Source: a virus. From it: DNA of 35,875 nt. Position 1 is the first letter of the stretch; every line of letters starts with the position of its first letter. Location: positions 1 through 35,875 of IMG/VR virus record IMGVR_UViG_3300048592_000501; one strand, 5' to 3'. Below are positions 2,053 through 34,704 of the stretch, piece by piece. Below the pieces are notes generated by a model. That model was not told where the DNA came from. It searched no databases and worked only from the letters and a program-made list of their open reading frames with translations. The translations under genes and the position numbers were made by a program.

Positions 2053-2080
2053 CGCCCCTCGCAACTCGCCCCTCGCCCCT
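2053..2080 (-). repeat. Heptad repeat GAGGGGC/GAGTTGC
   Basis: Four heptads read GAGGGGC or GAGTTGC on the minus strand. They sit between the dyad at 2079-2107 and the start of the head-closure gene. Confidence 0.75.
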
Positions 2081-2107
2081 GGTCACATAACAACCGATTA
2101 TCCCAAC
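2079..2107 (-). promoter_or_regulatory. Dispersed dyad motif (stoperator-like)
   Basis: On the minus strand it reads GGGATAAT, five bases, then GTTATGTGACCAG. The TAA inside GATAAT is the stop codon of the gp6-like gene. It matches the dyad found at most gene junctions of this genome. Confidence 0.6.
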
Positions 2108-2484
2108 AGCGACGAATTGATCACCTGTTCCCGCCAGGCGAAATCATCGACAATCACCTCGGCGATCTCGAACCCGGCATACCCCGCATCCGCATCGTCG
2201 GCCTCCGCCTGCTGGCGCAGCAGCTTCGCCCGCGCCAACAGTGACTCAGCCAACTTGGCCCCATCCGTCTGCACATCCAGCAGCTTTATGACCTTTAGGG
2301 TCATAGCCTCAGATGCCGCAATCGTCTCCAACGCCAGCGCCGCCGCCCGCCGCACCGACCCGGATTCCAGCGACACGAACGCCGTCAACTCCTCATCAGA
2401 GAAAACGGCATTCGCCCAATCCGTGTCAGGAATCAGCAGCCGGATTTTGCCGACGTTCGTGGTCAGGTCGTAGGTAAAGGCCAT
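2098..2484 (-). CDS. Head-tail connector adaptor (gp6/gp15-like)
   Basis: This 128-residue, largely helical protein opens AFTYDLTTNVGKIRLLIPDTD and continues FSDEELTAFVSLE and AAALALETIAASEAMTLKVIK, a pattern I know from phage head-tail connector (gp6-like) families. These form a ring under the portal and receive the head-closure protein encoded next. About 9 bases separate it from the preceding small gene. Its stop codon lies within a dispersed dyad. I see no truncation. Confidence 0.75.
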   Translation of the reverse strand: MAFTYDLTTNVGKIRLLIPDTDWANAVFSDEELTAFVSLESGSVRRAAALALETIAASEAMTLKVIKLLDVQTDGAKLAESLLARAKLLRQQAEADDADAGYAGFEIAEVIVDDFAWREQVINSSLLG

Positions 2485-2493
2485 GCGTCCGCC

Positions 2494-2712
2494 TTACTTG
2501 TCGTCTCGTGTCCGCCGCTTCGTTGGTTTCACAGGCTCAGGCTCCCGCAGCGCCACCAGGTCGCCCTCCGCCGGCGCCGCCGCCGCCGAAATCTCCACCG
2601 CCACCTGCGCCAGCACCACATTCATATAGCGCAGGCTCAGCGCAATATCGTGCAGATACTCATCTGCCTGCGTCGCCGGCGGTGGCAGCGCCCGCCGCTC
2701 CTCGCTCATCAT
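2494..2712 (-). CDS. Small helical protein after the capsid gene
   Basis: The ATG at 2712 overlaps the TGA of the capsid gene (ATGA), and the stop is at 2494, giving 72 residues. It begins MMSEERRALPPPATQADEYL, has one amphipathic helix (LHDIALSLRYMNVVLAQVAVEI), and ends in a Lys/Arg-rich tail (KPTKRRTRDDK). I do not recognise the family. A small gene between capsid and connector genes is common. Translational coupling to the capsid gene is inferred from the overlap. Confidence 0.65.
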   Translation of the reverse strand: MMSEERRALPPPATQADEYLHDIALSLRYMNVVLAQVAVEISAAAAPAEGDLVALREPEPVKPTKRRTRDDK

Positions 2713-3890
2713 GAGCCGCTCCCATTGCTGGCAACTGCGCTCTTCGGAGAAAGCAGCGTTCCACCAAAGCCGATAACCGCTTTGTACTCCTGACTCATCG
2801 TCGAGAAGTCGCCGGCCATCTGGTCGATGCCGCCACCAATGCGCACCGTGTTGGCCAGCTTCTGGTAGAGCGCCGGTTCTTGGAAGCCAGTGAGCAGTCC
2901 GACCTCGATGGCCGCCCGGCCAACCGCCGGCGAAGCGAAGAGGAACCACGATGTCGAGCCGTTGCTGCTCGAGGCAATGATCGGAATGTACGGATCGACC
3001 ACCACCGTCAAGTTGGACCCGAGCCAGTTCTGAGTCTCAAGCTCGAGGCCGCTGGCGCCGCCGGCCGTCGTCTGGCGCACGGTGGTGGCGTTGACGATGT
3101 TGCGTGCCGTCACCTCGAGCGCAGGCGGCACAACCAGGATCACCGATTCGACCATGATCGGCTCGCTGTCGCTGTCCTTCATGCTGCGCAGAATGCCCCA
3201 CGCCGTGTTGAGTGCAGCCAGGCTCAGCACCGGGTTGCTCGTCACGATGTTGGCGTTGCCAGAAGCGAAGAACGTGCCGTCCGGGCCAGTCGTGCCGACG
3301 TACAAGTCGGTGACGAATTTTGCCAGCGTGCGCGCAGCGCCACGCCCGAGCCGGTTCGGTACATCCTCAAAGGCGCCGAGATCGTCGTTCATGAGCGCCT
3401 CGAACGAAATCTTGACGCCCTTGCTGAACTTCTTCGCCGCGTAGGTGTAGCTCGTTTCGCTCAGGCCAACGTACTCAAGTTCTTCGCTCTCGTTCTGCTG
3501 CGAGAGCTGCCCCTCGGCGCCGTCGACCGCAATGCGCCGCACGGTGCGGAAATCACGCACGGTGCGCACAGAGACGAACTGCCGCCAGGAGGCTGGGAAC
3601 TCCCGATAGCGCGCCAGCAACATGCGATCCAGCACATCGCCCGTCAGATACGGGAAATCGCTGGTCGTCAGATTCTCCCGGAAAACACCGGGATAGTTGG
3701 CAGCGATGGCGCGTGCCACCGCCGGCGTGCGCGGCGCCAGCGCTTCCTGCAGGAAGTAGCTCGGCACCTTGCCCGAAATCAGATCACCCCACAGTGCGGC
3801 CGCATTCGCCACCGCACCCGCGCGTGCCTGGCTGCGATGCAATGTAAAACCATCCAGACCGCCCTCATTCAGTCCAACAAACTCGTCCAT
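2709..3890 (-). CDS. Major capsid protein (HK97 fold, Mu gpT-type)
   Basis: From the ATG at 3890, preceded by AGGAGAG, the product is 393 residues starting MDEFVGLNEGGLDG. An in-frame start 30 bases upstream exists but lacks this ribosome site. The body has features of Mu-like major head subunits: SYFLQEALAPRTPAVARAIA, a basic segment SWRQFVSVRTVRDFRTVRRI, an E-loop-like GAEGQLSQQNESEELEYV followed by YAAKKFSKGVKISFEALMND, and a C-terminal SPAVGRAAIEVGLLTGFQEP. It assembles the icosahedral shell and follows the protease/scaffold and cement genes, as in Mu-like modules. The C-terminal tail SNGSGS is short. Confidence 0.88.
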   Translation of the reverse strand: MDEFVGLNEGGLDGFTLHRSQARAGAVANAAALWGDLISGKVPSYFLQEALAPRTPAVARAIAANYPGVFRENLTTSDFPYLTGDVLDRMLLARYREFPASWRQFVSVRTVRDFRTVRRIAVDGAEGQLSQQNESEELEYVGLSETSYTYAAKKFSKGVKISFEALMNDDLGAFEDVPNRLGRGAARTLAKFVTDLYVGTTGPDGTFFASGNANIVTSNPVLSLAALNTAWGILRSMKDSDSEPIMVESVILVVPPALEVTARNIVNATTVRQTTAGGASGLELETQNWLGSNLTVVVDPYIPIIASSSNGSTSWFLFASPAVGRAAIEVGLLTGFQEPALYQKLANTVRIGGGIDQMAGDFSTMSQEYKAVIGFGGTLLSPKSAVASNGSGS

Positions 3891-3932
3891 CGTTGCTCTC
3901 CTGTTGGCTCTAGGCCACACTCACTCGCCGGC

Positions 3933-4271: not shown

Positions 4272-4316
4272 CTCGCTCTGTCCCCCAGTTTCAAATCATG
4301 ACCCATAACGCTACTA

Positions 4317-4757
4317 CTACCGACCGTTTGCCGCTGCCTTCGCACTGGTCTCGCTCAGCCCCAACGACTGGAAAGCCTCGGCCATGCGTGCCTGAACCGC
4401 CGCCTCGTCGACCTGGCCGCCCTGTGCAGGCTGCCCGCCCACGTTCTGGATGCGGCCGGCGCCATACCCGGCCGCTTCGGCCAGATACTGCTGCTCAGCC
4501 GTGATCGCTTCCGTCACCCGCTGGCGCAGCACCAGCGCGTCCAACTGGCCATCCTCGCCAATCGGCGGATTCGTGGCCACCTGGCCCAACAGCCGGCGCC
4601 GGGTCACTTCGGGCAGATTCGCCTCGGCCAGCACATCAGTCGCCAGCGCACGCGCATCCCGCAGCACCAGACCCTCCGCCAGCCGTCCATTCGCCGCCTG
4701 CAGCGCCTCAATCTGTCGCTGCGCCTCCGTCAACTGCGCCTGCAACTCCTCACTCAT
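4317..4757 (-). CDS. Nested scaffolding protein (internal start in protease gene)
   Basis: In frame with the protease, ATG 4757 (codon 241) follows a strong AGGAGGAG ribosome site and opens MSEELQAQLTEAQRQ. It would yield a 146-residue scaffold: a coiled coil, then a helical middle, then an Ala/Gln-rich tail. Phage lambda C/Nu3 uses the same arrangement. A copy of the dispersed dyad lies 14-47 bases upstream, inside the protease coding sequence. That is the only copy fully inside a gene. Separate expression is inferred. Confidence 0.65.
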   Translation of the reverse strand: MSEELQAQLTEAQRQIEALQAANGRLAEGLVLRDARALATDVLAEANLPEVTRRRLLGQVATNPPIGEDGQLDALVLRQRVTEAITAEQQYLAEAAGYGAGRIQNVGGQPAQGGQVDEAAVQARMAEAFQSLGLSETSAKAAANGR

Positions 4758-5477
4758 CTCGCTCTCCTCCTGGAACTGTAATTCCCCATTATCGTTACTG
4801 GGGACGCTGGCTTCCTCGCCCCCCGCCCCTCGCCCCCCGCCCCGGCGTGCCGCCTCAAACATGCTGATAATCTGCCCGCCGGCGCCAGGCTCCGTCACAA
4901 AATCCACACTGCGAGCGTTGACCAGTTGCTGCACAATGCGCCCCTGTCGCCCCTCAGCCTCGCCAGCCACCGCACGCCCCGCCGCCCGGATGCTCACGCC
5001 GATGTGCGGCGCAAGCTCCTCAACCGCTGCCTGGTACGGTCCAAACACTTTGGCGTCCGCATACAGCCCCGGCCCGGCCACCCCGGTCGCCTCCCAGCGT
5101 GCGCCGCTCACCAACTCCGCCGCCAGATTGCGCAGATCGCCCTCTGGCCGCTCAGCCTCTTCCGACAATGTCGGATGATTCCAATACATTTTGGTTTTGG
5201 CGGGAAACACAATCGGACCGTCCCGCTCCAGAACCTCCGCCGGATAGAACCCCGACGATCCCCAGCCCGGCTGAATCAACTTCACCGGCACCGTCCCATC
5301 GCGGCGCAGCGTCCCCTCGACCAGCGGCACAAACTCAGCGCCGATCGCCGCTTCTTCGGCCTCTACATCGTCCATGCTCTCTACATCCACATCCAGCAGC
5401 GCCAGCACCTCGCTCAGCGCCGACAACGCATTCCTCAATTTGCTCTCATTCGCCCGGCTCAATACACGCCCTGCCAT
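4317..5477 (-). CDS. Prohead protease fused to scaffold (Mu gpI-like)
   Basis: The start is ATG at 5477 behind GGGGAGGGG. The product is 386 residues beginning MAGRVLSRANESKL. Residues about 50-200 form the phage protease domain, with YWNHPT (candidate catalytic His) and HIGVSIRAAG (candidate Ser). A Gly/Arg-rich linker (ARRGGGRGAGGEE, partly built from heptads) joins it to a coiled-coil scaffold (MSEELQAQLTEAQRQIEALQA) and a Gln/Ala-rich tail. The protease should cleave scaffold and itself during maturation. The second start at 4757 would give scaffold alone. Upstream lie a promoter and an intrinsic terminator, so expression may be attenuated. Confidence 0.83.
   Translation of the reverse strand: MAGRVLSRANESKLRNALSALSEVLALLDVDVESMDDVEAEEAAIGAEFVPLVEGTLRRDGTVPVKLIQPGWGSSGFYPAEVLERDGPIVFPAKTKMYWNHPTLSEEAERPEGDLRNLAAELVSGARWEATGVAGPGLYADAKVFGPYQAAVEELAPHIGVSIRAAGRAVAGEAEGRQGRIVQQLVNARSVDFVTEPGAGGQIISMFEAARRGGGRGAGGEEASVPSNDNGELQFQEESEMSEELQAQLTEAQRQIEALQAANGRLAEGLVLRDARALATDVLAEANLPEVTRRRLLGQVATNPPIGEDGQLDALVLRQRVTEAITAEQQYLAEAAGYGAGRIQNVGGQPAQGGQVDEAAVQARMAEAFQSLGLSETSAKAAANGR
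4771..4804 (-). promoter_or_regulatory. Dispersed dyad motif inside the protease gene
   Basis: The minus strand reads CGATAATGGGG followed by AATTACAG and TTCCAGGAGG, matching the genome-wide dyad. It immediately precedes the ribosome site of the nested scaffold start. Confidence 0.5.
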
Positions 5478-5494
5478 GGCCCCTCCCCACCAAC

Positions 5495-5529
5495 AAAAAA
5501 CGCCCACGGCCATTGCTGGCTCGTAGGCG
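5495..5529 (-). terminator. Intrinsic terminator/attenuator before the protease gene
   Basis: On the minus strand CGCCTACG (5529-5522) pairs with CGTGGGCG (5508-5501), with one G-U wobble, and is followed at once by six T (5500-5495). The ribosome site and ATG of the protease gene come within 18 bases. A second stem, GGCTGCG/CGCAGCC with a 5-base loop, lies upstream at 5586-5604. With the promoter at 5623-5651 this makes a structured leader of about 130 bases. Confidence 0.6.
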
Positions 5530-5651: not shown

Positions 5652-5655
5652 TACC

Positions 5656-6877: not shown

Positions 6878-6908
6878 CTGTACAGATAATAGGGTCTTAT
6901 CGCCACAC
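6878..6908 (-). promoter_or_regulatory. Dispersed dyad motif between portal and F-like genes
   Basis: The minus strand reads GGCGATAAG, five bases, then ATTATCTGTACAG. It is one of the better-preserved copies, about 30-60 bases before the F-like start. Confidence 0.6.
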
Positions 6909-6974: not shown

Positions 6975-8558
6975 CTAGGCACGCAGCGCCTCACGCAGCT
7001 CACGCACCGCCTCAACCATCGCCGCCTCAGCCGCCGGCGTGGTCGCACCCATCGGTGGCGCTTCCCCATCTGGGAACATCCGGTCAATCACCTGGTCAAC
7101 ATCCCCGACCCCCAGCGCCGTCAACAGCATCGACGACAGCGTCCGCAGGTCAACCGTCCCGGCCAGCGCCTGGCCCCGCAGCGTCGCCGCATCTACCATC
7201 GCCCCGATCATCCCCGGCGTGTCTTCCTGCACCAGTGGCGGAAAATCCACCACCACCCGAGGCCACACCCCATCATTCCACACCACCCGCTCAAAGACAG
7301 CGCCCTCTTCCACCACCCGATCGATCGTGCCGACCCCTCGCAGCGCACCGCCCGGCGCCCTCACCTGCCAGAAGAGCACAAAATCATGGATCGCATTCAG
7401 CACGTCCGCCCACAACATCTGCCGGTCACGCATCGCCAGCTCAGTCGGTCGATCCAGGCTCTTCGCCGTCGCCAGACTGCCCACGCTCGCATCGCCAAAA
7501 AACGTCTCCGGCAAATTCAGGCTCGCCGCCACCATCAGCAAAATGCGCCGGCCATCCTCGGCGCTCACCGTGGCGCCACTGGTCCGCACCGCCTCCAGCT
7601 TCACCCCCTCGCCGGCGATGAACGTGCTTCCTGCCACCGGCGCCGGATTCGTGATCGTCCCGTCGCCCGCTGCCGAGCTCGCTAGCTTCGCCTTCGCCGC
7701 CATCACCGCCGACTTCCCGCCTGGCTGGCTCAACTGGAACGCAAAGCGCCGATACGCCCGCACAATACTCGCCCAATCCTCGAGGAACTCTTTGTACGCC
7801 TTGGCCCAATCAATCGCCGCATACACCTCCGACAACCCGAACTTCCAGTTGGAGAAGCTGCCCACCTTCACATGGTAGATCGGCGACTCCCACATCACCG
7901 GCTTCGAGCCGATAAACGCCGGCTTCTGCACCGGGTCATAGCGCCAATCCGGGTAATATGCCTCCTTCGTGCTCATCTCCTGTGCGCCGGTCTGCATATT
8001 CAGCCGGCTCTCTGTCCACGAGCGCAGGTAATACCACGGCGTGCGTGCATCGTTCGGATCGCAGATCACGTCCTGGATCTCCTCGAACGGCGCCGTCCGC
8101 ACCCGCACCCGCCCCGTCGATCGGTTCACAAACAGGCAGAAAAACAGATTGCCTGTCACCTGCAGCTCGATTTCCTTGGCGCTCATCTCCTGCTGACTGA
8201 GTTCCGTCGCATTCTTCGGGTCTTCATAAAACGCCGTCAGCGCATCGTCCAGCGCCGCATCCTCCGCCCGCACGTTATACCCTTGCCCAAACACATACAG
8301 CCGCTGCACCGCCACGCCCCGCTTGATCAGCGGATTCTTGATCGCCATGATCCGGCTCAGCTCCGTAATCGTCGCCAGACCCGGCCGGCTGAACTCCTGG
8401 TCCGCCTGTGTCGTCAGCAGCCGCCAATCCATCGACTCCAGCGTCCACTCCAGCGCCGCCAGCCGCTCATGCATCTCAACGACCTCAGCCGCCTCCAACA
8501 GCGACGCCTCGCCATTCACCGCCCCTCGCCCCTCGCCCCTGTCCTCATAAGTCCCCAT
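6975..8558 (-). CDS. Portal protein
   Basis: The 527-residue product has portal features: ITELSRIMAIKNPLIKRGVA near the N-terminus, a clip/stem region with PFEEIQDVICDPND, YHVKVGSFSNWKFGLSEVY, and KAYKEFLEDWASIVRAYRRFA, and a C-terminal crown with SLNLPETFFGDAS and LDRPTELAMRDRQ. It forms the 12-mer ring through which DNA is packaged and lies downstream of the large terminase. Its ATG is embedded in a dispersed dyad (GATAATGGGG), and codons 6-13 are heptad-derived (EDRGEGRGAVNG). The N-terminus is therefore unlike related portals and a later start cannot be excluded. Confidence 0.85.
   Translation of the reverse strand: MGTYEDRGEGRGAVNGEASLLEAAEVVEMHERLAALEWTLESMDWRLLTTQADQEFSRPGLATITELSRIMAIKNPLIKRGVAVQRLYVFGQGYNVRAEDAALDDALTAFYEDPKNATELSQQEMSAKEIELQVTGNLFFCLFVNRSTGRVRVRTAPFEEIQDVICDPNDARTPWYYLRSWTESRLNMQTGAQEMSTKEAYYPDWRYDPVQKPAFIGSKPVMWESPIYHVKVGSFSNWKFGLSEVYAAIDWAKAYKEFLEDWASIVRAYRRFAFQLSQPGGKSAVMAAKAKLASSAAGDGTITNPAPVAGSTFIAGEGVKLEAVRTSGATVSAEDGRRILLMVAASLNLPETFFGDASVGSLATAKSLDRPTELAMRDRQMLWADVLNAIHDFVLFWQVRAPGGALRGVGTIDRVVEEGAVFERVVWNDGVWPRVVVDFPPLVQEDTPGMIGAMVDAATLRGQALAGTVDLRTLSSMLLTALGVGDVDQVIDRMFPDGEAPPMGATTPAAEAAMVEAVRELREALRA
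8519..8540 (-). repeat. Heptad repeat at the portal N-terminus
   Basis: Three GAGGGGC heptads immediately follow the dyad that contains the portal ATG. Confidence 0.75.
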
Positions 8559-8569
8559 TATCTGTACAC
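8539..8569 (-). promoter_or_regulatory. Dispersed dyad motif spanning the portal start codon
   Basis: The minus strand reads GTGTACAGATAAT, GGGGA, CTTATGAGGACAG. The ATG of the portal gene is the last three bases of GATAATG. A protein bound here would cover the initiation region in DNA. Confidence 0.6.
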
Positions 8570-10758: not shown

Positions 10759-10918
10759 CTGACTTCTCCTCTCTTGAATCCAAATCCAACAACTCAATCA
10801 ATAGCTGAAGCGCCGTTAGCGTATCCGCTGTCATACTAACCAGCCGGTGCAGCAACTCCACCATATACGCCAACCGCTCTTGAATCTCCTGCGCATCGGT
10901 TCCATTCATGCTGGTCAT
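10739..10918 (-). CDS. Small helical protein
   Basis: The ATG at 10918 (or 10909) lies inside the right end of a dispersed dyad, giving up to 59 residues. The product (MTSMNGTDAQEIQERLAYMV, ELLHRLVSMTADTLTALQLL) is a continuous amphipathic helix with leucines in heptad spacing, then an acidic/basic tail. It could be a small coiled-coil partner of terminase. This is inferred only from position. Confidence 0.5.
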   Translation of the reverse strand: MTSMNGTDAQEIQERLAYMVELLHRLVSMTADTLTALQLLIELLDLDSREEKSGAVDRD

Positions 10919-10940
10919 ATAACAAACAGTTATCGATCCT
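10911..10940 (-). promoter_or_regulatory. Dispersed dyad motif
   Basis: The minus strand reads ATCGATAAC, five bases, GTTATATGACCAG. It contains the start of the next gene (ATGACCAGC). Confidence 0.6.
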
Positions 10941-11211
10941 GATTCAGCAGGCCATGCACCAGCCGCTCCAGATGGCGCACCCGGCTCTCCAGCCCGGCGA
11001 TCTGCCGTTTCGCCGTCTCCGGCCACGGCCACGGCTCACACGCTGTCTGTCGCATGATTGGCGCCGATTGACGGACCTCCTCAATCAGATTGCGCTTGGC
11101 CGTCTCAAACCACGGTTCAGGCCGTGTCGTATGACGTTTCACCCATTCGTTTATTTCGTCCGGCATCGCATACTCCGCATCCATCAGATCGACAACCGCA
11201 CCCTCACCCAT
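10930..11211 (-). CDS. Uncharacterised protein next to the small terminase
   Basis: The ATG at 11211, preceded by GGGGAGG, gives 93 residues (MGEGAVVDLMDAEYAMPDEI). It has two PWxETAKR motifs (EPWFETAKRNLIE and WPWPETAKRQIAG) and a C-terminal coiled coil (LESRVRHLERLVHGLL). The duplicated motif suggests an internal repeat of about 35 residues. Its start overlaps the end of the probable small terminase gene by a few bases. Function unknown. Confidence 0.6.
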   Translation of the reverse strand: MGEGAVVDLMDAEYAMPDEINEWVKRHTTRPEPWFETAKRNLIEEVRQSAPIMRQTACEPWPWPETAKRQIAGLESRVRHLERLVHGLLNQDR

Positions 11212-12716: not shown

Positions 12717-13220
12717 TTACGGGTCAACCATTCCCCGCACCGTCTCCACCGCCGTGGCCAGCCGCCCATCGTCGCCGGCCTGGCACGCTGCCGCCAGCTC
12801 GCCCAGCACCGTGGCACCCTGCCCGCTCGCCCTGGTCGCCGCGCCGGCCGCCACCGTCCCGCACGCCTCCAACAGCGCCGGCGAGCGCTCCCCATCCGCC
12901 AACCGACGCACCACCGACAGCAGCGCCGCCGTCAACTGGTCAGCCGTCACCGTCGCCGGATCTCGCTCCAGCACATAGCGCAGCGCCTCATCGAACGCCG
13001 CATCCACCACAGCCTGCACCAACACTCCTGGCGTCTCCGTCACAAACTCCCCTCCTGGAAGGGGCGCACTTGTGCTACTGGCCGCCGCCGGTGTTGCCGT
13101 GCTGGCAACCGGCGTCTTGGTCGGCGTAGCCGTCGGCCCGGCCTGTCCGCCACACCCCACCAGCACCACCACCGCCACCGCCACCATCACGCCCCTCGCA
13201 ACTCGCCCCTCGCCTCTCAT
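12717..13220 (-). CDS. Lipoprotein with Thr/Pro-rich linker
   Basis: The ATG at 13220 overlaps the integrase stop (ATGA) and follows TGGAGG. The 167-residue product has a signal peptide ending in lipobox LVGC (Cys23), a low-complexity linker (GPTATPTKTPVASTATPAAA), and a helical domain (TPGVLVQAVVDAAFDEALRY to GRLATAVETVRGMVDP). The basic n-region (RGEGRVARG) is encoded by heptads. It would be anchored outside the membrane. Next to int, it may be a lysogen-expressed surface protein such as a superinfection-exclusion factor. TPT linkers are common in Chloroflexota secreted proteins. Confidence 0.7.
   Translation of the reverse strand: MRGEGRVARGVMVAVAVVVLVGCGGQAGPTATPTKTPVASTATPAAASSTSAPLPGGEFVTETPGVLVQAVVDAAFDEALRYVLERDPATVTADQLTAALLSVVRRLADGERSPALLEACGTVAAGAATRASGQGATVLGELAAACQAGDDGRLATAVETVRGMVDP
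13191..13218 (-). repeat. Heptad repeat encoding the signal-peptide n-region
   Basis: The block reads GAGGCGA, GGGGCGA, GTTGCGA, GGGGCG on the minus strand, directly after the lipoprotein ATG. Confidence 0.7.
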
Positions 13221-14155
13221 CCCAACCTCCAATTATCCACCGGGCTCGCCCGCCTGTGCGCCTCCGCAATATCCGTCTGCGCCAGCGCTAGGTACCGCTT
13301 GACCATCTCCATTGTAGCATGACCGAGCAACCGCTGGAGCGTGTACACGTCTCCGCCATTCCTCAGATAATTGACCGCAAACGTGTGGCGGAACCGGTGC
13401 GGATTCACCACCTCCGCCACCTCCGCCCGCTGCCCGGCGCCCAGCAGCATCTTGCGCAGCGCCGCCCGGTCCAGCGGCTGGCCTCGCTTCGTCTCGAAGA
13501 GCGCCGCATCTGGCCGCCGCGCATCCTCAGCACGCCGGCTCAGGTACGACCACAGCGCCGCCTTCGCCGTCACGCCAAGGTAGACCGTCCTGCCCTTGTC
13601 GCCTTTGCCGTGCCGCACCTGTACAACGCCGCTCTTCATATCCACGTCGCCGACCACCAGATCGCACAGCTCCTGCGCCCGCACCCCCGTATCCAGCAGA
13701 AGCAGCACAATCGCCCGATCCCGGTGCCGTGTTGGTCGGCTCATCTGCGCCGGCGCCCGCTTCTCGCTGCGCCAGGTCGCCGTCTTCTCGACCGCCGTCA
13801 GAATCAGCCGCACATCCGTTTTGCTCAGCGGCACTACCTCACGCGTGCCCGCTTTCGGCGAGCGCACCGCACCCCTTATCACGTGCGGCAGCCCGTAGGC
13901 ATCCTCCAGCCACGTCCAGAACGCTGACAGCCCCGTGTGCGCATTCTTCACCGTCTTCGGCGCCAACTCCCGCTCGACGCGCAGCCAGTAGAGGAACCGG
14001 CGCACCTGGTCAGCATCAACGGCCGCCACGTCCGGATCATCGCCGACGAACTTCTCGAACTGGCGCAGCGTGTTGGCATAGTCGCGCGCCGTGTGCGCGC
14101 TGCCGGCCACCGCCCGCCACATCAGAAACCCCTGCACCGCCTCGCTCAGCCTCAT
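13217..14155 (-). CDS. int: Tyrosine recombinase / integrase
   Basis: The 312-residue enzyme has an N-terminal core-binding SAM-like domain (residues 1-100, ARDYANTLRQFEKFVG, LAPKTVKNAHTGLSAFWTWL) and a catalytic domain. The catalytic residues are Arg in TGVRAQELCDL, Lys in HGKGDKGRTVYL, HRFRH, LLGHATMEMVKRYL (His and nucleophilic Tyr). It is complete. It lies 160 bases from a tRNA-Val 3'-half attP with arm-like repeats, so it probably integrates the phage into a host tRNA-Val gene. A second, different tyrosine recombinase is encoded at 16281-17414. Confidence 0.92.
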   Translation of the reverse strand: MRLSEAVQGFLMWRAVAGSAHTARDYANTLRQFEKFVGDDPDVAAVDADQVRRFLYWLRVERELAPKTVKNAHTGLSAFWTWLEDAYGLPHVIRGAVRSPKAGTREVVPLSKTDVRLILTAVEKTATWRSEKRAPAQMSRPTRHRDRAIVLLLLDTGVRAQELCDLVVGDVDMKSGVVQVRHGKGDKGRTVYLGVTAKAALWSYLSRRAEDARRPDAALFETKRGQPLDRAALRKMLLGAGQRAEVAEVVNPHRFRHTFAVNYLRNGGDVYTLQRLLGHATMEMVKRYLALAQTDIAEAHRRASPVDNWRLG

Positions 14156-14236: not shown

Positions 14237-14266
14237 CTGTACCGATAATAAATTTGTTCTGTATAC
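14237..14266. promoter_or_regulatory. Dispersed dyad motif upstream of int
   Basis: The plus strand reads CTGTACCGATAAT, then a poor right half TTGTTCTGTATAC. It abuts the 20-bp hairpin at 14262-14309. Confidence 0.5.
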
Positions 14267-14309
14267 GACAGCAGCCACTCCTGCTAACTGGAGTGGCTGC
14301 TGTCGTATA
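14262..14309. other. Perfect 20-bp inverted repeat
   Basis: The arms 14262-14281 and 14290-14309 are exactly complementary, with an 8-base loop (TGCTAACT). No T-run follows on either strand except a weak TCTGTTTT on the plus side. It lies between the attP core and int, so it may be a terminator, an integrase or excisionase site, or part of attP architecture. Confidence 0.7.
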
Positions 14310-14316: not shown

Positions 14317-14365
14317 TGGTGGGCGAGAAGGGACTCGAACCCGTGACCTCACGGATGTGAACCGT
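14317..14365 (-). other. attP: attP core: 3' half of a tRNA-Val (CAC)
   Basis: The minus strand carries a tRNA 3' half: anticodon loop TTCACAT (anticodon CAC), variable loop, T-arm GGGTTCGAGTCCC, acceptor strand CTCGCCC, A, then CCA. The 5' half is missing: upstream bases do not form a D-arm and the spacing is too long. GGGCGAT 97 bases upstream is part of a dyad-like sequence. Phage integration commonly uses tRNA 3' ends. Confidence 0.7.
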
Positions 14366-14467: not shown

Positions 14468-14518
14468 AATCGCCTTGCTGTACCGATAACCAATTGTTAT
14501 GTGTACAGCAGGGCGATT
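14468..14518 (+). terminator. Long hairpin built around the best dyad copy
   Basis: Arms AATCGCCTTGCTGTAC-CGATAAC and GTTATGT-GTACAGCAGGGCGATT pair over 23 positions with three mismatches and a 5-base loop. The plus strand then reads CCTTCGTTTTT. It is both a near-perfect copy of the dispersed dyad (14478-14508) and a plausible plus-strand terminator, and faces the secreted-protein gene at 14557-14880. Confidence 0.55.
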
Positions 14519-14989: not shown

Positions 14990-15406
14990 CTAATCCACCG
15001 CTTTTTCATCCTCTTCCTCGACCTTGCGCAATATCCGAATCATTTCAATGGCGGCTTCTTGCGCACGTCGAGGGAGTGCATTGAACTCTGCAATTAGACT
15101 GCGAATCAGTCGCCGTTCATCGTCACTGTCCACGTCGACCGTGACGTACTCTCCTGCCATCTCCCGAAGCACCTTCACGTCCGGCTCGCCCAACGGCGAT
15201 TCTGACGCACCCAGCAGATAGACAACCGACACCCCAAGCGCATCCGCCAGCGCCTGCACCGTTTTCACGCCGACATTGACATCAATATCCCGTTCGATCT
15301 GGGAGATGTAACTTCGATTGACGCCTACCATGCTGGCAAGCGTCTCTTGCTTCATATCCAGCCGGCGCCGCTCTATCAATACCCGATCACCACGCAGTAC
15401 GCTCAT
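14990..15406 (-). CDS. XRE-family repressor (CI-like)
   Basis: From ATG 15406 (MSVLRGDRVLIERRRLDMKQ) the product is 138 residues. An upstream start at 15427 is possible. The helix-turn-helix is QETLASMVGVNRSYISQIER (residues about 20-40), then TVQALADALGVSVVYLLG. The acidic C-terminus (DVDSDDERRLIRSLIAEF, EMIRILRKVEEEDEKAVD) is helical and shows no LexA-like protease motif, so induction probably does not rely on RecA-mediated self-cleavage. It diverges from the early operon and is the likely lysogeny keeper. Confidence 0.85.
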   Translation of the reverse strand: MSVLRGDRVLIERRRLDMKQETLASMVGVNRSYISQIERDIDVNVGVKTVQALADALGVSVVYLLGASESPLGEPDVKVLREMAGEYVTVDVDSDDERRLIRSLIAEFNALPRRAQEAAIEMIRILRKVEEEDEKAVD

Positions 15407-15465
15407 GCTTCCAATTGTAGGAACCATTTCCGGCTCCGATAGTGAAACGGCCAGATGTCATTTTG

Positions 15466-15533
15466 ATCGACAAATGCTCTTGACAAGTGATAACAAATGG
15501 TAGTAAGATTGTCACTGTAGATAGCATTTGTTA
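15466..15533 (+). promoter_or_regulatory. Early promoter and operators between repressor and early operon
   Basis: The plus strand has TTGACA (15480-15485), an 18-base spacer, and TAAGAT (15504-15509). TAACAAATGGTA (15491-15502) lies in the spacer. Its inverted twin TAGCATTTGTTA (15522-15533) lies downstream. A third partial copy, GACAAATGCT (15469-15478), overlaps the -35 side. These look like three repressor half-sites at a PR-type promoter. Confidence 0.65.
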
Positions 15534-15555
15534 GTGAAACCGTCACGAGGAAGCC

Positions 15556-15747
15556 ATGCCAGACAAAAACCTGTCCGAAATCACCTACGTCAGACTGTCG
15601 CATGACCAGAAAACCGAACTGGAACGTATCGCCGCTAGCCACGACCTGACCCGCCGTGTATCGGATCACATTCGCTTTGCCGTTGACCAGTACATCGCTT
15701 CACAGGAAGCCAAGCGCACCAAACAGCCAACCACGTTCCCATCATGA
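15556..15747 (+). CDS. Ribbon-helix-helix DNA-binding protein (Cro-like position)
   Basis: The 63-residue product (MPDKNLSEITYVRLSHDQKT) begins with a beta-strand TYVRLSHDQKTELERIAASH and continues DLTRRVSDHIRFAVDQYIAS, the Arc/MetJ/CopG pattern. As the first gene after the early promoter it probably represses that promoter or the repressor gene. GAGGAAG precedes the ATG. It ends in an ATGA overlap with the next gene. Confidence 0.75.
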   Translation: MPDKNLSEITYVRLSHDQKTELERIAASHDLTRRVSDHIRFAVDQYIASQEAKRTKQPTTFPS

Positions 15748-16013: not shown

Positions 16014-16284
16014 GTCCAGAGTCCCGCACAAAGCACTCTGGTCGCTCGACGAGGCCATCGAGGAGCACGACCCGGACATCGCCGAACTCATCGGCCACTT
16101 GCTCGACCAGCTACAGCGGGAAGAAGAAGCCGCCCGCAACCGCTACGACAAAACCGCCCGGCTCCGGCTCAGCGAAACCTTCGCCACCGTCGCCCGGCTC
16201 CAACAGCACACCAGCCGCCTCGCCAGCCTGCACCGCCAGGCCCGAGCCAACGAATACGACCAGCACGAAAGGAAGCAACCATGA
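16003..16284 (+). CDS. Charged helical protein
   Basis: The 93-residue product (MPTKSRVPHKALWSLDEAIE) contains a long coiled-coil region (EEHDPDIAELIGHLLDQLQR, EEEAARNRYDKTARLRLSET). It has 11 bases of overlap upstream and ATGA overlap with the recombinase gene downstream, so it is translated with the recombinase. It might be an accessory factor such as an excisionase, but no winged-helix motif is seen. Confidence 0.6.
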   Translation: MPTKSRVPHKALWSLDEAIEEHDPDIAELIGHLLDQLQREEEAARNRYDKTARLRLSETFATVARLQQHTSRLASLHRQARANEYDQHERKQP

Positions 16285-20316: not shown

Positions 20317-20538
20317 ATGAAGACATTGCACTCAAGACATAACGGAACCAACGACTGGCACATCAAATGCGCCAACGACCTATGGAAAGTCTACGACCGT
20401 GACCAGAAATACCGCTGCAGCTTCCGCACGCGCGCCGAAGCCGAACACTACATCGACCAGCACCGCACCCGCCGCCCAAAGGGCAACCTGGCGCAACTCG
20501 CCCCTCGCCCCTCGCAACTCGTGCTGCTGGACGCATAA
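20317..20538 (+). CDS. Small protein with heptad-derived C-terminus
   Basis: The 73-residue product, behind AAGGAAG, begins MKTLHSRHNGTNDWHIKCAN and contains WKVYDRDQKYRCSFRTRAEA, resembling small phage proteins with a single beta-sheet domain. Its last 15 residues (LAQLAPRPSQLVLLDA) come from a heptad block. No known function. Confidence 0.55.
   Translation: MKTLHSRHNGTNDWHIKCANDLWKVYDRDQKYRCSFRTRAEAEHYIDQHRTRRPKGNLAQLAPRPSQLVLLDA
20494..20520 (+). repeat. Heptad repeat at the end of a small gene
   Basis: CAACTCG and CCCCTCG heptads alternate and encode LAQLAPRPSQL before the stop codon. Confidence 0.75.
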
Positions 20539-20557
20539 CGCCACATTACCAGTACAG
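20531..20557 (+). promoter_or_regulatory. Dispersed dyad motif
   Basis: GCATAAC, five bases, ATTACCAGTACAG. Here the TAA in GCATAAC is the stop codon of the previous gene, and the right end leads into the ribosome site of the next. Confidence 0.55.
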
Positions 20558-21582: not shown

Positions 21583-21593
21583 CCGACACAGTC

Positions 21594-21619
21594 TCAATAA
21601 TGATTTATTACCAGTACAG
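21594..21619 (+). promoter_or_regulatory. Dispersed dyad motif upstream of parA
   Basis: CAATAAT, GATTT, ATTACCAGTACAG, followed by the GGAAG ribosome site of parA. Confidence 0.5.
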
Positions 21620-21631: not shown

Positions 21632-22381
21632 ATGACAACACCTATCATCGCCATCTGCAACCACAAGGGCGGCAGCGGCAAAACCACCACCGCCTGGCAT
21701 CTAGCCCACGCCCTCACCGCCGAAACAACCGGCGCCATGCACCGCGTGCTGCTCGTCGATCTCGACGACCAGGCCACGCTCACCAACCGCCTGGCGCACA
21801 GCATTACCGGCAGCGACATCGAAACCGAACCAACCATCGCCGACGCACTCGACAGCGGCGTCACCTCCACCTACCGCTACACGCCGCTGCTCTCCTACAT
21901 CCCGGCAGATTATCGCCTGTCGTGGGTCGCCGCCAAAATGCAGGCCAGCAGCCCCAACCACGCCTACCTGTTGCGTGCCCTGCGCAACCTGCCGCCCTAC
22001 GACATGATCCTGCTCGACTGCCCGCCCTCCGCCGGCATCATCATGATCAACGCACTCGCCGCCTGCACACACACGGTGATCCCCGTCACTCCGAGCGAGG
22101 AGAGTTGGGACGGCCGCCAGCGCATGGAGCGTATGATCGCCGAAATCAGCAGCGTCCTCGCCAAACAGATCACGCCGCTGGGCGCCGTCCTCACCATGCG
22201 CAGCCCCCGCAGCAAAACCCAGGACTACTACGAGACCCTCAACGCCCAGGCCGGCCTGCTCGGCGCCGTCCCCCACGCCGTCGGCCTCGACGCCGACCAG
22301 CGCATCTACACCGCCTACCAACCCATCGCCAGCGCCATCCTGGCCAAACTGGCGCAGGAGCAACCATGCTCAGCCAACTGA
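21632..22381 (+). CDS. parA: ParA partition ATPase
   Basis: The 249-residue product is a full ParA: deviant Walker A CNHKGGSGKTT, RVLLVDLDDQATLT (motif A'), and Walker B YDMILLDCPPSAG. It lacks a long N-terminal HTH, so it is of the short type Ib/soj-like class. It uses nucleoid binding to position the ParB-DNA complex and to segregate low-copy DNA. Its last 16 bases overlap parB. It is not a phage packaging ATPase: the motifs are specific to ParA/Soj. Confidence 0.92.
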   Translation: MTTPIIAICNHKGGSGKTTTAWHLAHALTAETTGAMHRVLLVDLDDQATLTNRLAHSITGSDIETEPTIADALDSGVTSTYRYTPLLSYIPADYRLSWVAAKMQASSPNHAYLLRALRNLPPYDMILLDCPPSAGIIMINALAACTHTVIPVTPSEESWDGRQRMERMIAEISSVLAKQITPLGAVLTMRSPRSKTQDYYETLNAQAGLLGAVPHAVGLDADQRIYTAYQPIASAILAKLAQEQPCSAN

Positions 22382-23724
22382 TCAACACCACCAAGCACGA
22401 CAACGTCCGCATCGACGCCCTGCGCCTCGATGGCGGCACGCAGCCTCGCCACGGCATCAACGCCGCCTACGTCACCGAACTCGCCGAATCCATCGTCGAA
22501 GGCGCCACCCTGCCGCCCGTCGAAGTCATCTACGACGGCGCCAACTACTGGCTCTATGACGGCTTCCACCGTGTCGCAGCGCACCAGCAAGCCGGCATCA
22601 TCATGATCAACGCCAACATCCGCCAGGGCGCCCAGGCCGACGCCCAGTGGCGATCCTACGCCGCCAACCAGACCCACGGCCTGCGCCGCACCAACGACGA
22701 CAAGCAGCGAGCCATCCAGGCCGCCCTGCGCCACCCCAACGGCGTCACAATGGCCAATCGAGAAATTGCCCGTCACCTTGGCGTCGACCACAAGACCGTC
22801 GGCGACTGGCGCGAGAAACTTGAAGCGACTGGGGAAATTCCCCAGTCAACGACGCGCACCGGCGCCGACGGCCGAACCATCGACACTACCAACATTGGCA
22901 CTAACCAGCCGCCGACAGTTGATCCATGGCTGGCTGCGCTGAATGGCGATGGGCCGCCGGTGAGTGTGATGGAGATCGCGCGGCGGCTGGCGGCTGTGAT
23001 TGAGCCGTGGGTGGCGGCGTGGGTGGACGACAAGGGGCGCACGTGGCGTGATGTGGCGAACCGGAATCCGCAACATGCGAATTCACCGTTCCGTCAGGAT
23101 TTACAGGCGGAGCTGGCGCGGCGCGGTTTGCGTCTCAGCGGAATGGCGACGGGGGAGGCGATCCGGTTGGCGTTCCAGGCGTTGTCGATGCGGGATGGGG
23201 CGCAAGCGGTGACGGCGTCCGGCCTGCCACCTCTCGAGCTTCGCACCGTCGGCGCCATGGCCGATCATTACGTGCGCCACCTGCTCACGCAGATGGATGC
23301 CGATGGTGCACTGGACCACGTAACCACCAGCCTGGACGCCGTCCGGGAGATAGAACGGCTATTGAGTTGTCATGCGTCTATCGCCCGTCTCGTCGCCACC
23401 GCAGCCAGCGACCTGTTGGCCGGCGTTCTCGATCTGGAAGTCTCAACCGCCGCCGACACCCGCGAGCGCAACCATCTCGACGCAACGCCGCCAGTAATCA
23501 GCAATCAGGATCGCCCCCTGCCCGACTGGGCCGCCGACGACCCCGACCCAGACCGCCCGCCCGCCCAACGCCCGCTAACCGGCAAGGAACTCTGCACCGC
23601 CCTGCTCGGCCAGGCCATCGTCGACGTCTACAACCTGCCCGGCTCCGTGCGCCTGATGCTGGAAAACAACCAGACGATCACCATCAACGGCGCCGCCCTC
23701 CATTTCACCATTGAGGAGGCATAA
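22366..23724 (+). CDS. parB: ParB-like partition protein
   Basis: The ATG at 22366 lies inside the end of parA and gives 452 residues; an earlier in-frame opening is antisense noise. The N-terminal ParB/Srx domain has TLPPVEVIYDGANYWLYDGF, then HRVAAHQQAG (the DGFHR pattern), and is followed by REIARHLGVDHKTVGDWRE, a helix-turn-helix. The middle (about 185-285) is G-rich at third positions, unlike the rest of the genome. The long C-terminus is helical and of unknown role. A perfect palindrome lies inside the gene at 22827-22847. Confidence 0.85.
   Translation: MLSQLINTTKHDNVRIDALRLDGGTQPRHGINAAYVTELAESIVEGATLPPVEVIYDGANYWLYDGFHRVAAHQQAGIIMINANIRQGAQADAQWRSYAANQTHGLRRTNDDKQRAIQAALRHPNGVTMANREIARHLGVDHKTVGDWREKLEATGEIPQSTTRTGADGRTIDTTNIGTNQPPTVDPWLAALNGDGPPVSVMEIARRLAAVIEPWVAAWVDDKGRTWRDVANRNPQHANSPFRQDLQAELARRGLRLSGMATGEAIRLAFQALSMRDGAQAVTASGLPPLELRTVGAMADHYVRHLLTQMDADGALDHVTTSLDAVREIERLLSCHASIARLVATAASDLLAGVLDLEVSTAADTRERNHLDATPPVISNQDRPLPDWAADDPDPDRPPAQRPLTGKELCTALLGQAIVDVYNLPGSVRLMLENNQTITINGAALHFTIEEA
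22827..22847. promoter_or_regulatory. parS: Candidate parS: perfect 21-bp palindrome in parB
   Basis: Arms GACTGGGGAA and TTCCCCAGTC flank a single A. Partition sites are typically palindromes of this size within or next to par genes. An 18/21 match lies at 10556-10576, at the start of terL. Confidence 0.5.
22915..23213 (+). other. G-rich compositional island inside parB
   Basis: By hand count 22981-23040 has 32 G and 13 C, while 22621-22680 in the same gene has 18 G and 28 C. The reading frame is not broken. This looks like a segment of recombined origin or one evolved on the opposite strand. Confidence 0.65.
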
Positions 23725-24087: not shown

Positions 24088-24095
24088 TGGGCGCC

Positions 24096-24125
24096 AGTAC
24101 GCATAACAACAGCTTATCAGACCAG
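24096..24125 (+). promoter_or_regulatory. Dispersed dyad motif
   Basis: AGTACGCATAAC, AACAG, CTTATCAGACCAG, then the AGGAG ribosome site of the following gene. Confidence 0.6.
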
Positions 24126-26754: not shown

Positions 26755-26756
26755 CT

Positions 26757-26785
26757 GTTCATATAATAGAAACTTATCAGACCAG
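26757..26785. promoter_or_regulatory. Dispersed dyad motif at the convergent junction
   Basis: ATATAATAG, AAA, CTTATCAGACCAG on the plus strand, between the terminator and the last minus-strand gene. Confidence 0.45.
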
Positions 26786-29975: not shown

Positions 29976-30821
29976 CTAGGCAAAAACGTTCCACCACGCC
30001 AGCCCCACCGCCGACGCCGGCCCCGCCATCGACACCGACACCGACTGGCTACCCGGTTCCAAATCCAGCCAGCCCGCCGCCGTGTGCCCCGCACCGAGCA
30101 CAAATCCGCTGTAAGCGTTCGCGCCTGCATTCTGGATGCTTTGCACCTCATCATCCACCACCAGGCTCGCACCCGTCGCCAGCGTGCCCGTCCACGTCCA
30201 ATCAATGCCTCGCTCAGCGCACACCACCCGCATCGCCGAAATCGTCCCCGCCGCCGTAATGGTCAGCACCGCATGGCGCACCGGCAGATTTCCAGCCACC
30301 TCCACCAGCGCATTCCCCAGCAACGACACCGACGATTGCGCTAGGCTGCGCCAGCCCGCCTGCAATGTCTCAAAACTCGCCGTCAGCTTCACAATGGTGG
30401 CCACATCCTCAACTGTCCGGGTTCCGCCAATCGACAACAGCCTGGCTAAGCGCCACTGCACCGCCCCGTCCGACTCCCGCTGTCGGTGCAAAGCGCCCCG
30501 CACCCCAATCTTCGCCTTCAGCAGATCGACCGCATCCCGCATCAGCAGCGCCTCAGCCCCGGCAATGATCGGATTCCCAGCAACCTCGATAATCCGGTCG
30601 CCATTCTCCGCTACCAGATACACATTGCCACTGCCGCCCCCATAGGCGCCCGCAAACGGCACCACAATGCGCCGTGGCAGCCGTCGGGCGCTCCCGGCCC
30701 AGTCGAACGACCCGCCCACACTCTCGACAATCGACGACGCCACCGCACCACTGCTCAGATCGTCTTCTGGCAGCACATCTGGCAGCGCAACCCCGTCGAA
30801 CTCATAAATGCGATATGGCAC
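29976..30821 (-). CDS. Distal tail protein-like (Dit-like)
   Basis: A GTG start at 30821, at the end of a dispersed dyad, gives 281 residues beginning MPYRIYEFDGVALPDVLPED. A middle segment (EVAGNPIIAGAEALLMRDAV) and a beta-rich C-terminus (VSVSMAGPASAVGLAWWNVF) fit a distal tail or minor tail protein. Position right after the tape measure supports Dit. Sequence motifs are not decisive. Confidence 0.6.
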   Translation of the reverse strand: MPYRIYEFDGVALPDVLPEDDLSSGAVASSIVESVGGSFDWAGSARRLPRRIVVPFAGAYGGGSGNVYLVAENGDRIIEVAGNPIIAGAEALLMRDAVDLLKAKIGVRGALHRQRESDGAVQWRLARLLSIGGTRTVEDVATIVKLTASFETLQAGWRSLAQSSVSLLGNALVEVAGNLPVRHAVLTITAAGTISAMRVVCAERGIDWTWTGTLATGASLVVDDEVQSIQNAGANAYSGFVLGAGHTAAGWLDLEPGSQSVSVSMAGPASAVGLAWWNVFA

Positions 30822-30845
30822 GATAACTCCCCATTATCTGTACAG
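30820..30845 (-). promoter_or_regulatory. Dispersed dyad motif after the tape measure gene
   Basis: The minus strand reads CTGTACAGATAAT, GGGGA, GTTATCGTGCC. It begins directly after the tape-measure TAG and ends at the next GTG start. Confidence 0.65.
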
Positions 30846-33296: not shown

Positions 33297-33299
33297 TTC

Positions 33300-33326
33300 C
33301 TGGTCACATAATCAAAGGTTATGACG
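33300..33326 (-). promoter_or_regulatory. Dispersed dyad motif between tail tube and chaperone genes
   Basis: The minus strand reads TCATAAC, CTTTG, ATTATGTGACCAG, then the GGAAG ribosome site of the chaperone gene. Confidence 0.6.
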
Positions 33327-33334
33327 CCACCAGA

Positions 33335-33781
33335 CTACGGCGCCGCCACATGCGCCCACGTGATCGCATCCGTGATCTTGAGCGTCATGCTCGCCGTCTG
33401 CGCATCCTCCATCGGATTCGACAACTCGAACCCCGACACAAACCCGTCGAAGATCGCCGTCGTGGTCGCCCCCGCCGCGCCCGGATAGGTGATCCGGAAC
33501 GTCTGCACCGTGCCGTCTTCGAGCGCCGCATAGATGCTCGTCGACAGCGTCGGGTCGTGGCTGGCCAGGTCAGGATCGAACACAATGTCGAACGTCAGTT
33601 CCCCGCCGTCACGCATGCCCGCCCGGTACTGCCGCCACACGCTGTCACGGTGGCTCACCTCGATCTGGTCTGCCTGCGTGCCCGGCCCGTTGATGTCTCG
33701 CACCTGGCCAATCGTCGTGTACGTCGACGGCGCCGTGGTCAACCAGGCCAGCGTCGCCAGATACCCTGCATACTCAGTCAT
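33335..33781 (-). CDS. Major tail (tube) protein
   Basis: The 148-residue product starts MTEYAGYLATLAWLTTAPST and has typical siphophage tube features: TIGQVRDINGPGTQADQIEV, SHRDSVWRQYRAGMRDGGEL, a central ITYPGAAGATTTAIFDGFVS, and a C-terminal FELSNPMEDAQTASMTLKIT. It stacks as hexamers round the tape measure. Position before the G/GT chaperones confirms it. Confidence 0.87.
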   Translation of the reverse strand: MTEYAGYLATLAWLTTAPSTYTTIGQVRDINGPGTQADQIEVSHRDSVWRQYRAGMRDGGELTFDIVFDPDLASHDPTLSTSIYAALEDGTVQTFRITYPGAAGATTTAIFDGFVSGFELSNPMEDAQTASMTLKITDAITWAHVAAP

Positions 33782-33784
33782 AGC

Positions 33785-34183
33785 TCAATCTCCCAATTGT
33801 TCTGCATGCCACACGAAATAATCCAGCGACGCCACCCAGCTGCCCGACGCAGCCTCTACTACATCCCGATCGTCCTGCATCAGCGCCACGTCGATGCGCG
33901 GCCCGCTCGCCTGCGCCAGCGTCCCCATGGCCAGCCGCAACGCCGCCCGCAGTGCTAGCGACCCATCAAACGACGATGACCAACAATTGAACTGATAACG
34001 CGGCCGGCTGTACGTCGGCACTGTTGAATCACGATGCGTCACCGGCCGCGTGCTGATGCGCTGAAACGTCACCGCCGGCAGCGTTGCATCCTGCGGCAAC
34101 TGGACCGGATAGACGCGCGTGCCAGCCAACGCCGACAACCCGGCATCCGTGCTCAAATGGCCAAACAGCGCCGCCTCGATCAT
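33785..34183 (-). CDS. Tail completion protein (DUF3168-like)
   Basis: The 132-residue product (MIEAALFGHLSTDAGLSALA) has GTRVYPVQLPQDATLPAVTF and YQFNCWSSSFDGSLALRAAL, a recognisable DUF3168/gpU-like pattern of tail terminators. Its start overlaps the previous stop by one base (34183). It caps the tail and meets the head-closure protein. Confidence 0.82.
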   Translation of the reverse strand: MIEAALFGHLSTDAGLSALAGTRVYPVQLPQDATLPAVTFQRISTRPVTHRDSTVPTYSRPRYQFNCWSSSFDGSLALRAALRLAMGTLAQASGPRIDVALMQDDRDVVEAASGSWVASLDYFVWHAEQLGD

Positions 34184-34650
34184 CAGTCCATCGCCTTCCG
34201 CATCAACTCCGCCAGCGCCTCGACCGCCTCCCGCTGCGCCGTCCGACCATCCTCGTCGACCGCCGGTCGCAGATACGGTTGCGCCGCCTGGCTGTAATTG
34301 CGCCCGAGGCTGTCGGCGCCCTGGAACCCATATTCGATGCGCCGGGCATACTCGACATTGGTCCCGACAAACACCTCGGCATGATGCTCACGCACCACCG
34401 GCTGGCTAACCTGCCCGGCCGTGTTGACGATGCCCGCATTATCCGGCGCCAGGTCCTCATGCCCGCCGATGTGGATCGACCGCCGCAGATTGCCCGTGCG
34501 GTACGTCGCCCGCCGCTTGGCACTGTTCTGGATCAGCACCGCCCCGGCCGTCAACGCCCGCTCCAGCGTGCGCCCCTGCGCCACCTTGGCCATGCGCTTC
34601 CACTTATCATAGAGCCGCTGGCTTCCTCGGATCTCAGCCCGAACCGGCAT
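34183..34650 (-). CDS. HK97 gp10-like head-tail protein
   Basis: The 155-residue product (MPVRAEIRGSQRLYDKWKRM) carries the phage HK97 gp10 signature: GRTLERALTAGAVLIQNSAK, RRATYRTGNLRRSIHIGGHE, and EVFVGTNVEYARRIEYGFQG. It works at the neck or in tail assembly. A GAGGAGTGAGG ribosome region, built from heptads, precedes the ATG at 34650. Confidence 0.87.
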   Translation of the reverse strand: MPVRAEIRGSQRLYDKWKRMAKVAQGRTLERALTAGAVLIQNSAKRRATYRTGNLRRSIHIGGHEDLAPDNAGIVNTAGQVSQPVVREHHAEVFVGTNVEYARRIEYGFQGADSLGRNYSQAAQPYLRPAVDEDGRTAQREAVEALAELMRKAMD

Positions 34651-34676
34651 TCCTCACTCCTCGCCCCTCGCCCCCG

Positions 34677-34704
34677 TTCAGATAAGGCCCCATTATCGGT
34701 ACAG
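34677..34704 (-). promoter_or_regulatory. Dispersed dyad motif
   Basis: The minus strand reads CTGTACCGATAAT, GGGGC, CTTATCTGAACG, directly after the TAG of the adaptor gene. It is one of the closest matches to the consensus. Confidence 0.65.

Follow-up and report, generated by a model that had tools for sequence, protein, structure and literature searches.

Dyads at the gene junctions of a phage genome as candidate core sites of a phage-encoded Xer-type system

Introduction

Why does a phage genome carry the same long palindromic element at one gene junction after another, and which protein acts on it? We address this question in the window, by which we mean the whole 35,875-base stretch analysed here (IMG/VR record IMGVR_UViG_3300048592_000501; 62.7% G+C), which comes from a tailed phage that is probably temperate. 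The element is a 31-bp dyad, and the window also encodes two tyrosine recombinases, here called rec1 and rec2. On the sequence comparisons below, it is reasonably likely that the dyads are the core sites of a phage-encoded Xer-type system and bound exchangeable modules. The modularity of phage genomes is usually attributed to selection acting on the products of random or homologous recombination; a site-specific system that marks module borders genome-wide, if true, would be a direct and testable mechanism of mosaicism.

Results

The dyad and its copies in the window

The initial annotation had listed about 17 copies of a 30-bp dyad. We built a symmetric position weight matrix (PWM) from 11 exact cores and scanned the window with it, as that annotation had proposed. 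Fourteen strong copies score 21–41, far above the next-best match in the window (7.2) and the maximum over 20 Markov shuffles (12.6). A further copy, at 14237, is half decayed, and two listed sites, at 12697 (PWM 5.7) and near 4300, are indistinct from shuffles. A search for GATAACN5GTTAT with at most two mismatches gives 24 matches in the window against 2.1 expected, a count found in none of 100 shuffles. The repeat is symmetric, as had been noted, but the true unit is the full 31-bp dyad, with the pattern CTGKWC-N-SATAA-N7-TTATS-N-GWMCAG and the consensus half-site CTGTAC-N-G-ATAA. The inner ATAA and TTAT are invariant in the 11 exact copies and always 7 bp apart, with the 7-bp centre free to vary; the overall geometry is that of two half-sites of about 12 bp around a variable centre (the spacer) of 6–7 bp, with ATAA...TTAT innermost. 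The copies, listed without strand, are as follows (ORF, open reading frame).

2079–2109: dyad, spacer CAACCGA (PWM 35)
4770–4800: weaker dyad with a GTAA core, within ORF 4317–5513 (PWM 21)
6878–6908: dyad, spacer TAGGGTC (PWM 33)
8539–8569: dyad across the start of ORF 6975–8558, at the portal position (PWM 33)
10911–10941: dyad (PWM 32)
14237–14266: dyad with a 6-bp spacer, its right half decayed, lying between rec1 and the attP-like segment (scores 17 and 24)
14478–14508: best dyad, CTGTACCGATAACCAATTGTTATGTGTACAG (PWM 41)
17707–17737: dyad following rec2 and ORF 17428–17709 (PWM 31)
20527–20557: dyad, TTAC variant (PWM 27)
21589–21619: dyad, TTAC variant, ahead of parA (PWM 23.5)
24095–24125: dyad (PWM 32)
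26755–26785: dyad between convergent operons, preceded by a terminator-like hairpin (PWM 37)
30815–30845: dyad between the tape-measure gene and the following gene (PWM 30)
33300–33330: dyad (PWM 29)
34674–34704: dyad (PWM 34)

The copies stand at gene junctions, and that at 4770 is the sole one within an ORF. Four Chloroflexi metagenome-assembled genomes (MAGs) hold no copy at up to three mismatches, so the dyad is not an abundant host repeat in those MAGs. Judged from the sequence, the geometry matches a Xer/dif core site for tyrosine recombinases and not a helix-turn-helix (HTH) operator; the earlier suggestion of a DNA-binding protein with two subunits is supported.

Dyads in related phages

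Relatives of the window were found in IMG/VR by a terminase scan, a pattern scan and a scan with a rec1 alignment, the last giving 80 loci; scans of the same collection with ParB and with single rec1 or rec2 sequences returned nothing or one locus. The relatives, whose records are labelled G001 and so on, are metagenomic contigs, many of them incomplete, and most were found through rec1. Genes were called with a simple script, and the dyad list is heuristic; its thresholds were set by shuffles, so that a small number of false members are to be expected among the dyad phages. Dyads of the form xTAA-N6/7/8-TTAx with shared arms occur in dozens of contigs, where shuffles give one to three, apart from one AT-rich contig. 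With matrices made for each phage, 23 phages have 8–21 dyads, mostly 11–21, so that dyads with the same inner core are present in at least 23 related contigs.

These phages share the inner core and differ in their spacers and, phage by phage, in their outer arms. The arms contain TCGAC/TCGGG in G001 and G020, CAGT in G003 and GCTA in G004 and G005; G022 has CGGGACTG and CGGCACGC, G013 and G033 have CAGTATCA-GTAA, and CTAA cores are found in G026 and G028. Asymmetry between the two arms is significant in only two phages when 8-bp arms are compared. With 12-bp halves, the observed value exceeds that of every re-paired set in 11 of the 23 phages; in the window it is reached by 2 of 25 sets. In XerC/XerD sites the two arms differ, one for each of two recombinases. 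In some phages the stronger arm tends to point one way with respect to transcription, but over all phages there is no bias (126 versus 175).

Are the dyads also tied to gene junctions outside the window? Coding interiors make up 76% of the sequence of the 23 phages and hold 20% of their 349 dyads, a density far from equal inside and outside genes, which bears out the placement described in the initial annotation. A dyad is present at 16 of 40 convergent, 10 of 35 divergent and 247 of 1026 tandem junctions. The spacing of the dyads is far more even than that of random gene junctions (coefficient of variation 0.23–0.61 versus 0.70–0.90; combined P ~3e-37).

The spacers themselves are conserved between relatives. 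For orthologous dyads, conservation is 0.73 in the spacer, 0.71 in the arms and 0.54 in the adjacent flanks (P = 7e-6). Conservation of the spacers at the level of the arms is consistent with a requirement that the centres of two partners match, as in Acinetobacter plasmids (PMC11705084). Within one genome, none of 2308 pairs of dyads has identical spacers against 2.3 expected, a difference that is not significant. We also observed that the first base of the 7-bp spacers in the 23 phages is A in just 4 of 240 cases, counting both strands, so that ATAA is almost never followed by A.

Gain and exchange of modules at dyads

Several pairs of relatives differ by what lies between their dyads. On either side of a dyad, identity between G004 and G005 is 88% and 93%; G005 carries a DNA methyltransferase gene between two dyads, and at that place G004 has one dyad, which is chimeric, with one arm and the spacer of one G005 dyad and the other arm of the second. 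In G013 and G033, homology of 82–85% ends at a dyad with the spacer TCTCCA in both, then come differing terminase modules, with homology returning at the following dyad (spacers TGAATA and TGGATA). The module after that differs too, and its two spacers, TCACGA and CACACA, stand in swapped order. Relative to G011, G010 carries an additional M23 peptidase gene, again between dyads. The breakpoints of these exchanges lie in the dyads, at the edge of the spacer. In three near pairs, 16 of 93 breakpoints fall within 30 bp of a dyad, compared with 8.9 for random gene junctions (P = 0.007). In one group of loci (L012–L019) genes are inserted at junctions without dyads, and not every insertion in the wider group therefore uses them.

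Two tyrosine recombinases

Which protein goes with the dyads? Tyrosine recombinases are the sole protein family present in all 18 of the 18 dyad contigs that hold the full region. The window encodes two of them, beside a segment that resembles the end of a tRNA gene.

13217–14155, minus strand: rec1, XerA/XerC-like tyrosine recombinase, 312 amino acids (family model matches)
14319–14365, no strand: attP-like segment, resembling a tRNA gene end and adjoining rec1 (sequence comparison with related phages)
16281–17414, plus strand: rec2, Xer-like tyrosine recombinase, 377 amino acids, proposed partner of the dyads (Pfam PF00589, XerC/XerD models, alignment, structure model)

Both proteins match XerC, XerD and XerA models over their full length, below the equivalog cut-offs, and the integron-integrase model was matched only far below its cutoff. 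In an alignment of rec2 from 21 phages, R205, K233, H319, R322, H347 and Y356 are invariant. The AlphaFold model of rec2 (mean pLDDT 81) matches site-bound Cre and XerH with Z of about 19–20; its matches to MrpR/YopR and SroF, repressors with a recombinase fold, are weaker, with Z of about 14–15. Relatives of rec2 among 50,697 phage records are below 30% identity, a plasmid collection contained nothing related, and distant relatives occur in Chloroflexota and Actinobacteria MAGs without dispersed dyads.

Among the loci selected through rec1, dyads are present in 15 and absent from 10 of those with rec2, and present in 6 and absent from 47 of those without it (P = 1.5e-5); for most of the six, the contig or locus stops close to rec1. 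Arm similarity between phages follows rec2 identity (Mantel r = 0.55, P < 0.0005), with r = 0.31 for rec1 and 0.49 for terminase (n = 10). G015, G016 and G019 have rec1 and rec2 and no dispersed copies, and each has one dyad, or two in G015, beside these genes. The single dyad of G016 is a perfect palindrome, CTGTACAGATAACAGACGTTATCTGTACAG, with the window's arms; this dyad and the best dyad of G006 are the counterparts of the window's copy at 14478. At the position equivalent to 14237, G006 has a similar half-decayed copy (20498) and G016 a weak one (8535). The window's arms match those of G006 and G016 (r = 0.84 and 0.69), and both of its recombinases are about 65% identical to theirs. From these comparisons, rec2, perhaps together with rec1, probably binds the dyads.

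Rec1 is probably the phage integrase. Copies of the tRNA-like segment, 45–55 bp long, lie near rec1 in G015 and G017, and similar short matches are found at rec1 in G001, G006, G016 and G020; because this segment is common to several phages, a tRNA gene is probably the site at which rec1 integrates the phage. In the window, ARAGORN detects no complete tRNA. Between the dyad at 14237 and the tRNA-like segment there is a hairpin with a perfect 20-bp inverted repeat and an 8-nt loop (14262–14309).

Other features of the window and its relatives

Runs of CGCCCCTCGCCCCTCG-type repeats occur at about ten places in the window (near 2050, 4820, 6660, 8521, 13190, 16340, 20500, 26650, 32620 and 34655), within genes, including the N-terminus of rec2, and at gene ends; they show no link to the dyads. 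One GC-rich stretch that codes for repeats contains both ends of the window (1–1650 and 35500–35875), and the record is therefore probably a genome, permuted or circular, that was cut within that repeat. The G001 and G018 records also join end to start. An FtsK-like ATPase (17779–19095), ParA (21632–22381) and a ParB-like protein (22366–23724) form a chromosome-maintenance set.

Other repeats are found in two relatives. The G030 record (loci L264/L265) carries eight copies of a perfect palindrome with a constant centre, TTCTGCSGCAGAA, at 4252, 7975, 10766, 15465, 16181, 23195, 25526 and 26199 of its contig; this repeat is operator- or stoperator-like, and the phage, which has rec1 and no rec2, serves as a contrast case. 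The G007 record (L262/L263) has four copies of ATGTCCACRGACAT at 6167, 16011, 22011 and 27841 along with 12–14 dyads.

Discussion

A candidate Xer-type system

How might such a system work? The acting enzyme would most likely be rec2, with rec1 possibly on the second arm. One subunit would occupy each 12-bp half-site, the inner ATAA/TTAT providing the general contact and the outer arm the phage specificity, and strand exchange would take place in the 6–7-bp centre. The centres differ among the sites of any one genome, so self-recombination within a genome is not expected; since relatives tend to have the same centre at a given site, co-resident related phages could recombine at matching sites. 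Such recombination would swap or gain the module lying between them. We infer, then, that rec2 binds and cuts at the dyads and that exchange is the selected function.

It is tempting to go further and see the whole genome as a regular array of modules flanked by dif-like sites, on which a dedicated Xer system of two recombinases would act, so that relatives would swap modules, terminase and other core genes included, by site-specific and not by homologous recombination. The phages with such genomes would then be a widespread group of uncultivated temperate phages whose swapping takes place in co-infection. We offer this larger picture tentatively, as a possibility a little short of even. No such phage system is described in the papers we found, preprints and most subscription journals being outside the search. 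The phages also provide new recombinase/site pairs, with about two dozen arm specificities, most of them with a matching rec2 sequence.

Several points weigh against a Xer-type exchange system. Arm similarity also goes with TerL similarity, and the arm signal is therefore partly phylogenetic; there is linkage among rec1, rec2 and the repressor; and rec1 served to find many of the phages compared. The regular spacing of 2–4 kb is not predicted by module exchange and is not explained by the model alone. Some modules are bounded by dyads with different spacers, as in G005 (TCGGCC and TGCCTA). Finally, 77 of the 93 breakpoints lie away from dyads, and the enrichment over gene junctions is just 1.8-fold.

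Alternative explanations

The rival that survives best, although we regard it as unlikely, is that rec2 is, or is also, a master repressor with a recombinase fold that silences the prophage from the junction dyads, as MrpR does at SPBRE, with arm divergence reflecting immunity specificity. MrpR, a protein of tyrosine-recombinase fold, binds intergenic elements that recur in its own prophage, SPbeta (PMC10516654), and the rec2 model resembles MrpR/YopR and SroF, as given above. Even spacing and junction placement would suit silencing, and stoperators, up to 30 per genome, diverge along with their repressor (PMC6550527). Yet the six catalytic residues are invariant in all 21 rec2 proteins, whereas MrpR keeps three of seven and acts without recombination (PMC10516654). 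MrpR peaks lie in promoter regions, while the dyads are no less common at convergent than at divergent junctions. Silencing predicts neither the conservation of the spacers nor the breaks at their edges, and the HTH repressor of the window has its own operator-like repeat. Should rec2 be a silencer, it would join the master regulators that have a recombinase fold and sites across the genome, and its active site would be intact.

Could the dyads be passive boundary sequences, either linkers for homologous recombination or ends with which modules arrive? That boundary sequences underlie phage mosaicism is a long-standing proposal, and the mosaic junctions at dyads agree with it. We consider this improbable: the identical stretches among the dyads of one genome are too short for homologous recombination, the arms are phage-specific and track rec2, and the breaks come at the spacer edge.

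The initial annotation had pointed to stoperators bound by the repressor or by the ribbon-helix-helix (RHH) protein encoded opposite it, which are listed here.

14990–15406, minus strand: HTH_3 repressor, not the dyad binder (family match; kinship comparison)
15556–15747, plus strand: RHH-like small protein, not the dyad binder (kinship comparison; family searches without match)

Dispersed intergenic sites in a temperate phage and the presence of GATAACAAA near the divergent operator speak for this assignment, but the kinship of these proteins conflicts with that of the arms. Their nearest relatives are in G001 and G020 (repressor, E of about 1e-17 to 1e-18; RHH, 4e-4 and 6e-7), whose dyads have arms unlike the window's (r about 0.4), and window-type repressor and RHH proteins are undetectable in G006 and G016, which share its arms. 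We rejected both proteins as binders on these grounds. In addition, an HTH_3 dimer is too small for a dyad of 31 bp in which the centre can be 6 or 7 bp. The divergent gap between the two genes (15427–15556) has no dyad; it has a different, imperfect inverted repeat, TAACAAATGGTA/TAGCATTTGTTA, 19 nt apart (15491–15533), which from its sequence is likely the operator of the immunity repressor. That the repressor or the RHH protein reads the dyads is thus highly improbable.

There is still less to recommend promoters or RNA hairpins at gene starts. GATAAT resembles a -10 box and a ribosome-binding site often follows, but the dyads are as common at convergent as at other junctions, the arms are often non-complementary (as in G022), so that no stable hairpin is kept, and an Rfam scan gave no match. 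That the dyads are parS or KorB-like sites of the ParB-like protein is hardly credible, for although the window encodes both this protein and ParA, the ParB-like protein occurs in three genomes only (the window, G006 and G016) and is absent from the other dyad phages.

Comparison with known systems

A system of the kind proposed here would resemble integrons, in which a tyrosine recombinase moves site-bounded cassettes with the crossover at one edge of the site. It would differ in that attC is a folded single-strand site, and the dyad phages have no array beside an integrase.

Two phage systems share the genome-wide layout. Like MrpR and SPBRE of SPbeta, the window combines a recombinase-fold phage protein with repeated intergenic elements (PMC10516654); MrpR has lost catalytic residues and recognises a 15-bp motif in promoter regions, whereas rec2 has kept them and the core dyad is 30–31 bp long. 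Like the stoperators of cluster A mycobacteriophages, the parallel drawn in the initial annotation, the dyads have many copies per temperate genome and a motif that varies with the cognate protein (PMC6550527). The parallel holds for this layout and not for the site, since stoperators are 13-bp asymmetric repressor sites (PMC6550527) and the dyad is 31 bp and not tied to the repressor.

The closest likeness in structure is to Xer/dif sites. These are palindromic and non-coding with the inner part best conserved (PMC2731167), and ATAA-centre-TTAT is reported to set XerCD binding and cutting, with centres of 6 bp (dif) or 8 bp (ColE1) (PMC11705084). Such sites have two inverted arms of about 11 bp around a centre of 6–8 bp, with ATAA/TTAT innermost, a layout that the dyads share, and as in Xer systems a Xer-like tyrosine recombinase with intact catalytic residues is encoded in the same element. 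The pdif (xrs) modules of Acinetobacter likewise have ATAA-centre-TTAT, two arms, variable centres and several sites per replicon, and genes between the sites are gained or swapped, in pdif by exchange between replicons with matching centres (PMC11705084, PMC6449649). Sites of pdif number mostly one to four, are uneven and are absent from plasmid backbones (PMC6449649). In contrast, the dyads are phage-borne, accompanied by the phage's own recombinases, phage-specific in their arms and with centres of both 6 and 7 bp; they number 11–21, are evenly spaced and include core genes such as terminase, portal and tape measure among those they bound.

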